Below are positions 3,014-7,624 of a stretch of DNA of 43,322 nucleotides, piece after piece. The notes beneath the pieces are model-generated. The model worked only from the letters and a program-made list of their open reading frames with translations. It was not told where the DNA came from and did not search any database. The stretch's first letter is position 1. Every line of letters begins with the position of its first letter. The translations under genes and the position numbers were made by a program. Source of the DNA: Campylobacteraceae bacterium (lineage in GTDB: Bacteria > Campylobacterota > Campylobacteria > Campylobacterales > Sulfurovaceae); NCBI GenBank assembly GCA_026996165.1, contig JALWMP010000108.1:1-43322 (forward strand), given 5' to 3'.

Positions 3014-3037
3014 ATTCCAAAGCTCTAGCTTTGGAAT
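3014..3037. repeat. Short intergenic palindrome
   Basis: ATTCCAAAGC (3014-3023) and GCTTTGGAAT (3028-3037) are perfectly complementary around a 4-base loop. It lies a few bases left of the mobile hairpin element at 3046. On the minus strand it is followed by GAGGAAAAATT rather than a clean T-run, so a terminator role is uncertain. Confidence 0.55.
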
Positions 3038-3045
3038 ACTTATTA

Positions 3046-3310
3046 ACCTGAGTTCGATGGAATATCATATCCACAAAAGCCTAAAAATAGGTAAGATTTT
3101 CAAAATCAAATTCGCAGGACTAGCCGTAGCTAATTCAAGAATTTTATTTGGGAAAGATTGCCTATTTTTAGGCTTCCCTTCGGGTTTTGTGAGGTTTCCC
3201 ATATGCTTAGACAGATTTTTTTGAATTAACTAGTTAGTCCTGCAAAAATCTGCCGTTGCCTATGAAAAACCTCATAAAATTGTGGATATGATATTCCATC
3301 GAACTCAGGT
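3046..3310. mobile_element. MITE-like hairpin element, copy 1 (265 bp, IS982-type ends)
   Basis: Terminal inverted repeats of roughly 30 bases begin ACCTGAGTTCGATGGAATAT and return at the right end as the reverse complement. The element is flanked by the direct repeat TATTA (3041-3045 and 3311-3315), consistent with a 5-base target duplication. It has no ORF of useful length. The interior is built of nested complementary segments, including GCCTAAAAATAGG against CCTATTTTTAGGC. The first 12 bases equal the inverted-repeat tip of the IS982-like remnant at 6668-7490, so an IS982-family transposase probably mobilised it. A second copy with a longer stem is at 6900-7239. Confidence 0.85.
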
Positions 3311-3355
3311 TATTAGAGAAAAAATAAACTAAAGCTATTGTAATCTCTAATATTA

Positions 3356-3381
3356 GGTAACAAAGCAAGAGCTTTGTTACC
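3356..3381. repeat. Short intergenic palindrome downstream of moaE
   Basis: GGTAACAAAGC (3356-3366) and GCTTTGTTACC (3371-3381) form a perfect 11-bp stem with a 4-base loop, immediately downstream of the moaE stop codon. It could act as a weak terminator or mRNA stabiliser, but no U-tract follows on the minus strand. It is related in style to the palindromes at 2966 and 3014. Confidence 0.55.
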
Positions 3382-3389
3382 AATGAAAC

Positions 3390-3824
3390 CTACGCCAACA
3401 ATCCACTACCACTCATAGGTGTACTTCTATCCTCTGCATAGATTCGTTTTCCATCTTTAACATCATACTTCCAAATTGGAGCATTTGCCTTAAAGTCCTC
3501 TACAAACTCATCAATAAGCTCTAAAGCTACTCGTCGTTTAGGAGAGAAGACAGCAGATATATATGAAGAGGTATGCACAGGTACATCACCGATAGAGTGA
3601 GCCATTTTTACTTTAGCACCTAACTCTTCAGCTCTTTTTACCCAACCTTGAAACCACTGTTCTAAAATAGGTTCATAAATATCAAAACTTAATGCTTCAA
3701 TACCATCTTCAGCTCGAATTGTTCCTACAAAAGGAATATATGCTCCATAGTTAGAGTTCTTCTCTTCTTTTAACCATTTAGAAAAGATAGCCTCAATATC
3801 AAGGGGTCCATGATACAGCTCCAT
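3390..3824 (-). CDS. moaE: Molybdopterin synthase catalytic subunit MoaE
   Basis: The large subunit of molybdopterin synthase transfers sulfur from the thiocarboxylated C-terminus of MoaD to precursor Z (cPMP). The 144-residue product contains YGAYIPFVGTIR near the N-terminus, PKRRVALELIDEFVEDFKANAPIWKYD near the C-terminus and a typical MoaE length. I place the start at the ATG ending at 3824, one base past the moaD stop, because the protein then begins MELYHGPLD as family members do. A GTG start at 3836 would add four residues and overlap moaD by 11 bases. Confidence 0.94.
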   Translation of the reverse strand: MELYHGPLDIEAIFSKWLKEEKNSNYGAYIPFVGTIRAEDGIEALSFDIYEPILEQWFQGWVKRAEELGAKVKMAHSIGDVPVHTSSYISAVFSPKRRVALELIDEFVEDFKANAPIWKYDVKDGKRIYAEDRSTPMSGSGLLA

Positions 3825-3825
3825 C

Positions 3826-4047
3826 TTAACCACCACACACAGGAGGAAGAATTGAAATTTTATCTCCTGATTTTAATATCATGCTTAAATCTGACACCAT
3901 TTGGTCATTAACTGCTACAGCACACTTAGATAACCATGGAGCAATAGTCTCAATATTTTGTAGTTGAGTTGCTACATCTGCCAATGTTTTTGCCTCTAGT
4001 TCTAATACCTCTTGCGATATTGGTCCTAGAAATTCTACTTTTACCAC
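3826..4047 (-). CDS. moaD: Molybdopterin synthase sulfur carrier subunit MoaD
   Basis: A 73-residue ubiquitin-like protein ending in PPVCGG. The terminal Gly-Gly is the site that is adenylylated and thiocarboxylated to deliver sulfur to MoaE, which is encoded directly downstream. The start is GTG, supported by GGAAGAG a few bases upstream. A leftward TATAAT at 4085-4090 in the divergent gap with mqnA is a candidate promoter. Confidence 0.94.
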   Translation of the reverse strand: MVKVEFLGPISQEVLELEAKTLADVATQLQNIETIAPWLSKCAVAVNDQMVSDLSMILKSGDKISILPPVCGG

Positions 4048-4140
4048 GCACTCTTCCTTTTTTAAGATTAATACACGTTAGGTGATTATAAAAGTTGTTT
4101 GATATAATCATGCTTAAATTTTTTATGAAAGAGATGAACT

Positions 4141-4788
4141 GTGAAATTTGGCTCTATTAGCTACCTTAACCTACTACCATTTCAAGTCTTTTTAAAACGC
4201 TATCTTCCTGATTCAGGTTTAAAAAAAGGGTTAGCCTATAGAAGAGATGTTCCAAGCCAAATAAACAAAGCCCTACATAAACGTCAAATTAATGCAGGGT
4301 TTATCTCTAGCATAGAGTCAAAAAAATATAACTGTACCGATTTAGGAATTATTGCCAATAGAGCCGTTTACTCTGTATTTATTATAGAAGGGGAAAATAA
4401 AAGTGACCATGAGTCTGCCTCCTCTAATCGTCTTGCAAAAGTCCTAAATCTACAAGGAGAAGTCCTTATTGGAGATAAAGCACTTGTCTACTACTTAAAT
4501 GGAGGAGAAGGCATAGACCTAGCCACCCAATGGTACAAAGAGACTAACCTACCTTTTGTCTTTGCACGTCTATGCTACACTTGTCATGGTAAAACTGTAG
4601 AAAAAATCGCAAAAAAGTTTAGCAAACAACCAATAAAAATACCCCAATACATTTTAAAACATGAAGCTCAAAAAAGAGGCATAACTCCAAAGCAACTACA
4701 ATGGTATTTAAAGCACATTGAGTATAATATGTGTCATAAAGCTAAAAAATCTTTAAGACTATTTTTAAAAAAGAGTAATAAATTATGA
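4141..4788 (+). CDS. mqnA: Chorismate dehydratase MqnA (futalosine menaquinone pathway)
   Basis: Dehydrates chorismate to 3-enolpyruvylbenzoate, the first committed step of futalosine-dependent menaquinone synthesis. The 215-residue protein has a periplasmic-binding-protein-like fold signature: the opening KFGSISYLNLLPF is characteristic of the MqnA family, and GFISSIES and LIGDKALVYY follow. The start is GTG, with AAAGAGATGAA upstream acting as ribosome site. Its TGA overlaps the ATG of waaC by four bases, so menaquinone and LOS synthesis share a transcript. The later-step enzyme MqnD is encoded at 27542. A TATAAT at 4103-4108 is the likely -10. Confidence 0.92.
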   Translation: MKFGSISYLNLLPFQVFLKRYLPDSGLKKGLAYRRDVPSQINKALHKRQINAGFISSIESKKYNCTDLGIIANRAVYSVFIIEGENKSDHESASSNRLAKVLNLQGEVLIGDKALVYYLNGGEGIDLATQWYKETNLPFVFARLCYTCHGKTVEKIAKKFSKQPIKIPQYILKHEAQKRGITPKQLQWYLKHIEYNMCHKAKKSLRLFLKKSNKL

Positions 4789-5768
4789 AAATTGCCATTG
4801 TAAAACTCTCTGCCATGGGAGATATTATCCATGCTATGGTTGCCCTACAGTTTATAAAAAGAGCCAGACCAGATATTCAAATAGATTGGATAGTTGAAGA
4901 GGATTTTAAACAAATATTGGAGAATAACCCACATATTGACAATATTTTAACAATCAATTTAAAATCTATAAAAAAAGATAAAAAACAGCTCTTAAATGAG
5001 ATAAAAAAGATAAAATTCTATGCCAATAACCATTACGATTTAGTTATTGATGCACAAGGGCTTATTAAATCTGCTATTAGCTCCAAACTATTAGGAGATA
5101 AGATTGTAGGATTTTCAAAAAACTCTATTCGCGAGGGGGTTGCTTCCTATTTTTACCAACAAAAAGTAGAGATAGCTTATAAAGCCAATGCTATTGAACG
5201 AAACATAAAGGTACTTTGTGAACCACTAAATATTGAAGTTAAAAAAGAAGATATTTTAAATAAAGAGCCTTTTTTATATTATAAATCTACCCCTAAACTA
5301 CCTATAGAGAGCTATGTAGTCTTTGTAGTTGGAGCTTCTGTAGCACCTAAAATCTACCCAAAAGAGCTATTTTTAGAGGTAGCTAAGAGGCTCAATGAAA
5401 ATATTCTTGTTATCTGGGCAAACGATGAGGAGAAATCTGTTGCCCAATTTCTAAAAGAGCATAGCCAAAATATAACCATTGCCCCAAAAGTAAACCTAGA
5501 TGAGCTTAAAGCTCTTATTCATAAAGCCAAGTTAGTCATAGGTGGTGACACAGGTCCTACACACATGGCATGGGCATTAAATACCCCCTCTATTACACTT
5601 TTTGGAAATACCCCTGAGTATAGAAATACATATATAACCAAGATTAACAAAGTTCTAAAGTCTAGTTCAGTTGTCAATCCACTCAAACTAGACAAAAATG
5701 ACTACTCAATTAAAGAGATAGACCCAAAAGAGGTAACTACCCTAGCTAAGGAGCTTTTAGATGCGTGA
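4785..5768 (+). CDS. waaC: Lipopolysaccharide heptosyltransferase I WaaC
   Basis: A GT9-family enzyme that transfers the first L,D-heptose from ADP-heptose to Kdo of the lipid A-Kdo core, at the cytoplasmic side of the inner membrane. The N-terminus KIAIVKLSAMGDIIHAMVALQFI is typical of WaaC. The C-terminal donor-binding part has VIGGDTGPTHMAWALNTPSITLFG. Length 327 is normal. It overlaps mqnA by 4 bases and lpxL by 8 bases, indicating translational coupling. Of the four GT9 genes in the window, this and waaF (19874) are the most confidently assigned. Confidence 0.92.
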   Translation: MKIAIVKLSAMGDIIHAMVALQFIKRARPDIQIDWIVEEDFKQILENNPHIDNILTINLKSIKKDKKQLLNEIKKIKFYANNHYDLVIDAQGLIKSAISSKLLGDKIVGFSKNSIREGVASYFYQQKVEIAYKANAIERNIKVLCEPLNIEVKKEDILNKEPFLYYKSTPKLPIESYVVFVVGASVAPKIYPKELFLEVAKRLNENILVIWANDEEKSVAQFLKEHSQNITIAPKVNLDELKALIHKAKLVIGGDTGPTHMAWALNTPSITLFGNTPEYRNTYITKINKVLKSSSVVNPLKLDKNDYSIKEIDPKEVTTLAKELLDA

Positions 5769-6666
5769 TTACCTCTATTTAGGTCTCTACAAAACCTTCT
5801 CTTTTCTCTTAAAGGTTCTACCCCACTCTATGGAACGCTCCTTAATGAAAGCTCTTGGACGCTTTGCATACTTTGTTAGCAAAAAGCACCAAAAAATTAT
5901 TAACAATAACCTTGATTTAGCTTTTGATAAAAGACTTACTAAAGAGGAGAAAAAAGAGATAGGTATTTCAGCTTTTATAAACCTAGCCGATACCACTTTT
6001 GGCATTATAAAGCGTGACAATATGCCAAAGGAACAAGTTCTAAAAAATGTAACCTTTGAAAATGAAGAGATAGTTAAAAAGTACCAACAAGAGAAAAAAC
6101 AGTTTATCTTTATTACAGGACACTATGGAAATTGGGAACTTCTCTCACAAGCCATTGCTATCTATTTTGACTTAACTCTTGTAGGAGTAGGAAGAAAACT
6201 AGACTCTGATGTAATGGACGAGATTCTTAAAAAAAATAGAGAGCGTTTTAATGTAGAGATGGTCTACAAAAAAGGGGCAATGAAAGGGTGCATTAGAGCC
6301 ATTGCCAAAAAGAAGACTATAGGTATCTTAGTTGACCAACATCTACCACTTGAACAATCTATTGTGGTAGACTTTTTCAATCATAAAGTAACTCATACCC
6401 CTATTGCCTCTATTTTATCTCGTAAGTTTGGGGTTGACCTTATTCCTGCTTTTATCTCAACTGATGATTATGAACAGTACACTGTTAGGATTTATGAGCC
6501 AATTAAGAGTATAAAAACAGAGAATCAAGAGGCTGATTTAGAGACAACGACCATTGCCCAAGCTAAAGTGATGGAGAGAATAATTAAAGAGAACCCAAAG
6601 CAGTGGTTTTGGATGCATAAACGTTGGAAAGAGTTTTATAAAAAAGAGTTGTATGACTACCTATAA
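5761..6666 (+). CDS. lpxL: Lipid A biosynthesis lauroyl/myristoyl acyltransferase (LpxL/HtrB family)
   Basis: Transfers a secondary acyl chain from acyl-ACP onto Kdo2-lipid IVA. The 301-residue product has an N-terminal membrane-associated helix (YKTFSFLLKVLPHSMERSLMK), the catalytic HX4E motif in GHYGNWE (about residue 120), the downstream VDQHLP segment and a WMHKRWK C-terminal stretch, all classical for the family. It overlaps waaC by 8 bases. Its stop codon at 6664-6666 is immediately followed by the left end of the IS982-like remnant, whose 6-base target duplication TATAAA includes that stop. The chain specificity cannot be told from sequence. Confidence 0.92.
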   Translation: MRDYLYLGLYKTFSFLLKVLPHSMERSLMKALGRFAYFVSKKHQKIINNNLDLAFDKRLTKEEKKEIGISAFINLADTTFGIIKRDNMPKEQVLKNVTFENEEIVKKYQQEKKQFIFITGHYGNWELLSQAIAIYFDLTLVGVGRKLDSDVMDEILKKNRERFNVEMVYKKGAMKGCIRAIAKKKTIGILVDQHLPLEQSIVVDFFNHKVTHTPIASILSRKFGVDLIPAFISTDDYEQYTVRIYEPIKSIKTENQEADLETTTIAQAKVMERIIKENPKQWFWMHKRWKEFYKKELYDYL

Positions 6667-6700
6667 AACCTAAGTTCGACAAAAAAGAAGCCTAAAAGAG

Positions 6701-6745
6701 TAGTCACCTTATAATTTTAAAGCCAAAAAAACAAAAAGGTGACTA
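6701..6745 (+). promoter_or_regulatory. Hairpin able to sequester the transposase ribosome site
   Basis: TAGTCACCTT (6701-6710) is perfectly complementary to AAGGTGACTA (6736-6745). The right arm contains the GGTGA ribosome site of the transposase ATG at 6751. In transcripts entering from lpxL the hairpin would form and block translation. This RBS-hiding design is known for other insertion sequences. A TATAAT at 6709-6714 lies inside the left arm and loop, so transcripts initiated there would lack the left arm. Confidence 0.6.
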
Positions 6746-6750
6746 AAAAA

Positions 6751-6900
6751 ATGTTAACAAAAATATTCTTTGAGATAGATGACTTTATGCAAGAGTTTGA
6801 AGAAGAGTATAAAAAAAGATTATTGACTAGCAAAAAAGAGAGAGTAAAGTATAATTCACGACTTACACTTAGTGAAGTGATGAGTATTTTAGTCTATTAA
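6751..6900 (+). pseudogene. IS982-type transposase, N-terminal fragment
   Basis: ATG at 6751 follows GGTGACTAAAAAA. The 49 codons read MLTKIFFEIDDFMQEFEEEY and end in LTLSEVMSILVY, matching the start of IS982-family transposases (EIDDFC..FE and LSLSEIMTI). The TAA stop at 6898-6900 spans the junction with the hairpin element at 6900, so the insertion itself created the stop. The remaining transposase domain, including the first catalytic acidic residues, is lost. Confidence 0.8.
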
Positions 6901-7239
6901 CCTGAGTTCGACGGAATACCATATCCACAAAAGCCTAAAAATAGGTAAGATTTTCAAAATCAAATTTGCAGGACTAGCTGTAGCTAATTGTCCTCACTTC
7001 GTTGCGGAGTTACTCCAAAAATTTTATTTTGGGAAGATTGCCTATTTTTAGGCTTCCCTTCGGGTTTTACGAGGTTTCCCATATGCTTAGATAGATTTTT
7101 TTGGTAAAACTCCGCAACGAAGTGAGGACAATTAACTAGTTAGTCCTGCAAAAATCTATCGTTGCCTATGCAGTGCTTTGCACTCTCTTCGAGAAAAACC
7201 TCGTAAAATTGTGGATATGGTATTCCGTCGAACTCAGGT
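6900..7239. mobile_element. MITE-like hairpin element, copy 2 (340 bp) inside the IS remnant
   Basis: Same ends as the copy at 3046-3310 (ACCTGAGTTCGACGGAATAC and its reverse complement) and same internal order. It has an extra perfectly paired 26-base stem (6986-7011 with 7108-7133) and an extra small hairpin in the right half (AGTGC-TTT-GCACT near 7170). The immediate flanks TATTA (6895-6899) and TATCA (7240-7244) match at 4 of 5 bases. About 145 transposase codons are missing at the insertion point, so either a deletion accompanied insertion or the flank match is accidental. It has no convincing ORF. Confidence 0.85.
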
Positions 7240-7241
7240 TA

Positions 7242-7466
7242 TCAGGAAAACTTTATGCTGACAAAGGGTATATCTCAAAAAAACTATTTGAAAATCTTTT
7301 TGAAAAGGGTATAACATTGGTAACTTCTATCAAAAAAAATATGAAAAATAGGTTGATGCCTTTATTCGATAAACTACTTTTACGTAAACGTTCTGTTATT
7401 GAAACTATTAATGACCAACCTCTTAATGTTCATAGTTCAAGTGATGATTTGGTGGGAATTAGATAG
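7242..7466 (+). pseudogene. IS982-type transposase, C-terminal fragment
   Basis: From 7245 the frame reads GKLYADKGYISKKLFENLFE, followed by TLVTSIKKNMKN, LMPLFDKLLLRKRSVIETIND. This is the signature C-terminal catalytic block of IS982 transposases (DKGYI and KKNMKN..MP..DK..LRKR..IET). After VIETINDQ the similarity fades and the frame stops at 7466, some 30 residues early. An open frame from 7173 joins hairpin-element sequence to this fragment, but that fusion is an artefact of the insertion and not a gene. Confidence 0.85.
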
Positions 7467-7624
7467 GATTTAATGTTGTCGAACTCAGGTTATAAAAAAT
7501 ATTGCTATCATGTAGATATAGTATTTAGCTAACTGTTTTATGATTTTCATCTGTTTTCCTTATATATTCACAGAATTTTACCTAAGTTTAGATAAAATTG
7601 ACACTTTAAGGAACTATTAAAATT

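Follow-up and report, generated by a model that had tools for sequence, protein, structure and literature searches.

Bacterial miniature inverted-repeat transposable elements (MITEs) are usually viewed as dead, shrunken insertion sequences, each with one transposase, and their families are normally defined by the ends of a single parent insertion sequence. Those already described, such as QMITE2 of Coxiella, MITEAba12, Correia/NEMIS, RUP and Nezha, are short, non-coding and intergenic, have terminal inverted repeats and target duplications, give stably folding transcripts and are mobilised in trans by an insertion sequence. Two copies of an element resembling these are found in a 43,322-nucleotide (nt) stretch of DNA from a Campylobacteraceae bacterium of the Sulfurovaceae (positions 1 to 43,322 of contig JALWMP010000108.1, assembly GCA_026996165.1; hereafter the window). 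Both are non-autonomous, MITE-like transposable elements of roughly 270 bases that share the sequence features of the described families, and stable folding of the transcript and mobilisation in trans probably extend to them as well. What is new is the interior, a conserved folded core of about 200 nt that is common to 25 end types and occurs in three phyla. An initial annotation had described the two copies as a hairpin element with compensatory changes between its arms; the nature of the element as a transposon, its target duplications, its IS982-family partner and the recurrence of the core between unrelated tips elsewhere go beyond that description. The copies and their parts are as follows.

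3046-3310, + strand: copy 1, full element of 265 bp, hairpin A first
3041-3045, no strand: left target duplication of copy 1, 5 bp, TATTA
3311-3315, no strand: right target duplication of copy 1, TATTA
3046-3076, + strand: left terminal inverted repeat of copy 1, the 5' arm of outer stem P1
3280-3310, - strand: right terminal inverted repeat of copy 1
3077-3175, + strand: hairpin A of copy 1, apex GCAGGACTAGCCGTAGCTAATTC, functional (+) form on the + strand
3176-3184 (limits approximate), + strand: mini-hairpin CCCTTCGGG region of copy 1, at the junction
3184-3280, - strand: hairpin B of copy 1, functional (+) form on the - strand, matching the R1 model (see below) at 77.8 bits
6900-7239, + strand: copy 2, full element of 340 bp within an insertion sequence remnant, flanks TATTA/TATCA
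6990-7015, + strand: 26-nt insert in copy 2, at the apex of hairpin A
7104-7129, - strand: 26-nt insert in copy 2, at the apex of hairpin B, nearly the reverse complement of the hairpin A insert

Both copies start with ACCTGAGTTCGA and finish with its reverse complement, with tips reading ACCTGAG...CTCAGGT, and the limits given in the initial annotation are exact from tip to tip. Approximately 30 places in the source genome match copy 1 and the element is also present in many genomes of the same genus. An exact 5-bp target duplication, for instance TATTA, TTATA or TAAAA, flanks the element at 40 of 55 distinct tip-to-tip sites, where chance would give 8.6%; 4-bp duplications are seen in the group with GGGCACC tips, and for two insertions the corresponding site is empty in another genome. 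None of the elements at the loci examined lies inside an open reading frame (ORF), no ORF of at least 60 amino acids is found within copy 1, and convergent gene pairs are under-represented among the element neighbourhoods. The length is 263-275 bp in most tip groups and 265-340 bp in the window, with 14-48 matched bases in the terminal inverted repeats. With IS982-type tips the element has the defining DNA-level features of a MITE, being short and non-coding with terminal inverted repeats, target duplications, dispersed copies and empty sites, and having ends in common with an autonomous insertion sequence. The common but optional trait of an interior derived from the parent insertion sequence is absent, the core being common to different tip groups. 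The same observations bear on the idea that a conserved, independent structured RNA gene has repeatedly had transposon ends placed in or around it: the strong covariation and conserved loops described below would suit such a gene, but the tip-to-tip limits, duplications, empty sites and many places per genome do not, no Rfam family matches, and a single-copy, syntenic form lacking tips was not seen, making this explanation highly improbable.

In this genus a transposase can be associated with the element. Copy 2 is embedded in the remnant of an insertion sequence.

6668-6899, + strand: left part of an IS982-family remnant, with tip ACCTAAGTTCGAC and the N-terminal 49 codons of the transposase
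7240-7490, + strand: right part of the remnant, with DDE_Tnp_1_3 (PF13612, E 7e-24), ending in GTCGAACTCAGGT

The element has tips matching those of the remnant, ACCTAAGTTCGAC and GTCGAACTCAGGT. A near-complete IS982-type relative of 1036 bp in the same genus (locus L252) has ACCTGAGTTCGAC at either end, a TTTTA duplication and a PF13612 match at E 8e-46; overall the remnant is 90-92% identical to it, the left part corresponding to its nt 1-232 at 92% identity, while nt 233-636 are absent and copy 2 stands in their place. As both the tips and the 5-bp duplications are shared, the element is most likely moved in this genus by an IS982-family transposase that acts in trans on the tips ACCTGAGTTCGAC. 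The likeness to IS982-family insertion sequences ends there: the element lacks a transposase gene, and nothing in the insertion sequence corresponds to its core. The unequal flanks of copy 2 (TATTA and TATCA) imply that a deletion occurred next to it or that two insertions recombined.

The core consists of two homologous hairpins of approximately 97 nt in inverted orientation and a mini-hairpin, which together with the terminal stem form a four-armed cloverleaf. R1, a covariance model of one hairpin that was used for the genome counts, was made from B-type hairpins, and it gives a match of 43.9 bits to hairpin A of copy 1 as well (positions 3084-3168), from which it follows that the two hairpins are homologous and inverted relative to one another. 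Weak matches in other genera cover the interior alone and turned out to be complete elements with other terminal repeats. Nearly all of 48 divergent representatives fold into a terminal stem, a hairpin of about 99 nt, a mini-hairpin and a hairpin of about 97 nt, and the four-way fold is found in 85 of 91 non-redundant elements, 65 of these with every junction base paired. This core is enclosed by at least 25 different terminal repeats and keeps a constant length between them, which suggests that it has changed tips, and presumably transposases too, many times. The folded core thereby outlives its ends, one cloverleaf being found with 25 end types, and how a non-coding element gains new transposon ends is opened to testing.

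The distribution of the core extends over Campylobacterota, Gammaproteobacteria and Bacteroidota. R1 matches were found in 46 of 298 Campylobacteria genomes (20 of 59 genera, single-contig complete genomes included), in 77 of 369 genomes in the class of a Thiodiazotropha metagenome-assembled genome (MAG) and in 9 of 395 in the phylum of a Saprospiraceae MAG; the hairpin is present in about a sixth of the sampled Campylobacteria and a fifth of the sampled gammaproteobacterial genomes. A 20-base apex pattern has matches, some of them by chance, in Sulfurovum, Sulfurimonas, Nitratifractor, Sulfurospirillum, Saprospiraceae and gammaproteobacterial MAGs. Plasmid and phage collections gave a single partial match, on plasmid pAcX50f of Azotobacter chroococcum. 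Five matches in viral contigs all lie within one coding sequence and were discarded as chance, as was a coding match (L143) whose genome has no match to the model.

Pairs of inverted hairpins between genes are also typical of REP/BIME repeats with their RAYT transposases (PMC2817692, PMC3733652), and a system of this type, in which inverted palindrome pairs are moved by a REP-associated tyrosine transposase, would be in keeping with the high copy number and intergenic positions of the element and with the report of REP repeats in Sulfurovum (PMC3733652). However, REP/BIME repeats are defined as palindromes of 20-40 bp with a GTAG/CGTC tag and neither terminal repeats nor target duplications, whereas the hairpins of the element are about 97 nt, some three times longer, and are enclosed by long terminal inverted repeats flanked by target duplications. 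What is conserved in REP/BIME is a tetranucleotide at the foot, in the element the apex and an internal loop; furthermore, the tips match a DDE-type IS982 element. There is hence very little likelihood that the element belongs to such a system.

The two copies can be aligned end to end, copy 2 being longer by three stretches of 26, 26 and 23 nt, and all of the stems that were quoted in the initial annotation are present in both; stem GATGGAATATCAT of copy 1, for example, starts at 3056 and has its partner at 3288. The compensatory changes between arms that had been reported there are real, as 10 of the 15 substitutions make five base pairs altered on both sides (20,000 random draws gave a mean of 0.33 and a maximum of 4). 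Both copies fold much more stably than shuffled sequences do, with a z of -15.4 for copy 1 and -19.3 for copy 2. Among 46 related elements with the same tips, two-sided changes on the same branch exceed those for shuffled partners in every helix (24 against 3.7, 8 against 1.0 and 13 against 2.3), the observed values being reached in none of 2000 shuffles. In the terminal stem of this close group there are 24 direct two-sided changes, and in hairpin A the changes are mainly between Watson-Crick and G·T pairs (21 + 17 events), only five being to A·C. Covariation among close copies is thus supported by the branch counts but not by a G-test of column pairs in the set with IS982-type tips, where diversity is low and nothing was significant; the claim of covariation accordingly rests on the branch counts and on the divergent alignment.

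That alignment comprises 35 divergent B hairpins, in which every column pair was tested against a null that retains the tree and the types of substitution (a simplified, custom-written R-scape scheme). All 15 pairs that covary at E < 0.05 lie in proposed helices; the top score is 70, and the highest under the null 37. Paired cells make up 96.6% of those observed, compared with 64.7% after shuffling and at most 50% after sliding. Unpaired positions are conserved too, namely AAGGC facing AACGNAG, and the apex reads GCAGGAC-TAGC-NNNN-GCTA-ATTCAA; the AAGGC/AACGNAG internal loop, a bulged GCA and an apex C·A are kept across three phyla. G·T is more frequent than any other pair at some positions in the helices, and columns 17/87 show six pair types without A·C.

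Where one strand has a G·T mismatch the complementary strand has A·C, and processes acting on double-stranded DNA yield equal numbers of the two. Counted in the outer stems of 85 non-redundant elements, with agreement from a smaller set, the ratio of G·T to A·C is 42:50 in the terminal stem, 81:7 in the first hairpin and 9:65 in the second. This implies that the terminal repeats act as double-stranded sites and that each internal hairpin is maintained in a single strand, namely the one on which it is 5'-proximal. A bias of automatic folding towards G·T on the folded strand cannot explain the second hairpin, as the ratio there is reversed. The polarity is an RNA-like constraint working on either strand.

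These counts also bear on whether the fold has any function at all. It is established that hairpins can arise and persist through arm copying between inverted repeats (PMC8794818), and long inverted repeats could homogenise themselves in this way by template switching, with the core as inherited passenger DNA. Arm-to-arm overwriting is clear in two elements, hairpin 1 of L114, which reads GGGCAATCTTCAC...GTGAAGATTGCCC where its relatives retain a mismatched loop, and hairpin B of L011, one arm of which has been overwritten by the other, and the changes in the terminal stem are concerted without strand polarity. However, template-switch maintenance and quasipalindrome correction explain concerted changes and overwritten arms, leaving conserved mismatches and strand polarity unexplained. 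Homogenisation removes mismatches, yet the internal loop, bulged GCA and apex C·A persist in three phyla; it is strand-symmetric and cannot yield ratios of 81:7 and 9:65; and it does not account for a core of constant length between 25 tips. Arm copying alone, which would erase the conserved loops and the G·T polarity, is therefore not sufficient for the internal hairpins, and a functionless fold is improbable. The initial annotation had offered maintenance of the folded form and mutual repair of the arms as alternatives; both appear to occur, in different parts of the element. The internal hairpins covary, keep their internal loops and tolerate G·T in a strand-polar manner, whereas the terminal stem changes in concert without polarity. 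The element also offers natural material for telling template-switch homogenisation, seen in the terminal stem without polarity, apart from selection for a fold, seen in the hairpins with strong polarity.

What has been conserved in evolution appears to be a folded nucleic acid, probably RNA. The chief alternative is single-stranded DNA, with hairpins that fold on the strand exposed in replication or transposition and are recognised there, whether to pair the terminal repeats for any DDE transposase, to stall the fork or to start second-strand synthesis. The folded core puts both terminal repeats in one duplex beside a four-way junction, and its association with many terminal repeats would suit a general advantage at the level of DNA. 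Polarity would be expected as well, G·T being less destabilising than A·C, and the DNA does fold, as is indicated by precise losses of one hairpin at the junction (L014, L150, L205 and L218) and by remnants consisting of the terminal stem only (L416-L418). By contrast, positions where G·T is the most frequent pair, and six pair types without A·C at columns 17/87, are usual in RNA helices and unusual in DNA, and polarity is absent from the outer stem, the part on which a DNA mechanism would chiefly rely. Selection on single-stranded DNA consequently appears rather unlikely. On each strand G·T, but not A·C, is tolerated in the 5'-proximal hairpin, and from this pattern the selected form is probably RNA.

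Overall, a MITE-like, non-autonomous element with a conserved folded core is the best explanation, and probably the correct one. Each strand can fold into the four-way cloverleaf, and a transcript entering from either neighbour would make one functional hairpin first. The arms of the terminal stem would be kept in step both by the need for the two tips to match and by arm-onto-arm template switching at replication, and those of the internal hairpins by selection on the folded single strand. The conserved bulged loops may be presented to RNA polymerase, the ribosome or an RNA-binding protein, such that insertions between co-transcribed genes would be tolerated. A role in tolerating or controlling read-through transcription is, even at its strongest, a tentative suggestion. 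The wider proposal of a superfamily of mobile structured-RNA modules, two-hairpin and strand-independent, which hitch-hike within the ends of 25 or more unrelated transposons in three phyla and keep their fold through transposase switches, comes a little short of an even chance. If the RNA reading is true, the element would be more than a variant of MITE; the benefit of a mobile, two-way RNA (or single-stranded DNA) hairpin to itself or to its host is also opened to testing.

Several observations weigh against this explanation. Only one of the 25 tip groups has been tied to a transposase, and a complete genome (G268, contig C1) holds about 25 elements of the GGGCACC tip group, with nearly identical GGGCACCTCTAATAAC tips, for which no partner of insertion sequence length was found there, implying that the transposase is missing or that its ends have diverged; a search of complete genomes for transposon-length partners of GGGCACC tips found none. 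Many of the genomes searched are MAGs, and the tree of hairpins under the null was built from short sequences. G·T is the milder mismatch in DNA as well, and so is compatible with single-stranded DNA. No promoter or terminator is predicted in copy 1, and the orientation of elements relative to flanking genes is unbiased (30 versus 25, p = 0.59), which gives no positive support for a role as RNA; this absence of bias nevertheless fits a two-way element working from both strands.

Comparison with known families agrees with the initial annotation, in which no described family with this sequence was known. None of the 4227 families in Rfam 15 matched above its gathering threshold; at E values up to 1 copy 1 had no Rfam match and a gammaproteobacterial copy had only matches of plant miRNA or snoRNA type, far below threshold. 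A tRNA/tmRNA search found none, and no description of the element was found in the open-access literature. Integron attC sites and known ribozyme folds were rejected by eye rather than by formal test, as the foot of the hairpin lacks GTT/AAC pairing and a known catalytic core is absent. A role as terminator or promoter was also rejected, with none predicted and convergent gene pairs under-represented.

Some elements appear reduced or interrupted. L416, L417 and L418 are hairpins of 48-52 bp that retain only a GGGCACC-type terminal stem, the core having gone; they may be deletion remnants, or empty hairpins able to receive a core. At one contig end of the source genome (C171; L007/L365) and at the start of contig C80 (L011), hairpin A runs at its apex (junction ACTAGCC^GTAGC) into a 114-bp sequence, which in L366 sits before the start of an IS1182-type transposase (MSNIYKEGENRKQQLLFPPSIDDYV...). 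A gene-bearing autonomous form of the element, suspected from these two contigs, was rejected, the 114-bp sequence being the end of an IS1182-like element; an IS1182-type insertion sequence appears to use the hairpin tip as a target.

The 23-nt insert of copy 2 (7171-7193) holds the mini-palindromes AGTGCTTTGCACT and CTCTTCGAG, and the extra stretches of this copy reappear in varied combinations in copies L002, L003, L004, L008 and L009. Just outside the ends of copy 1 are the short palindromes CAAAGCTCTAGCTTTG (3018-3033) and CAAAGCAAGAGCTTTG (3361-3376), which are 94% complementary to one another. A third, incomplete copy lies at the contig end directly past the window (G000 contig C108, 43737-43828; L019/L021), and numerous contig ends of the source assembly are located in these elements. 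Finally, two left tips are found in tandem (ACCTGAATTCGAC...ACCTGAGTTCGAC) at positions 994-1060 of L023, apparently through insertion of one element into another or partial duplication.

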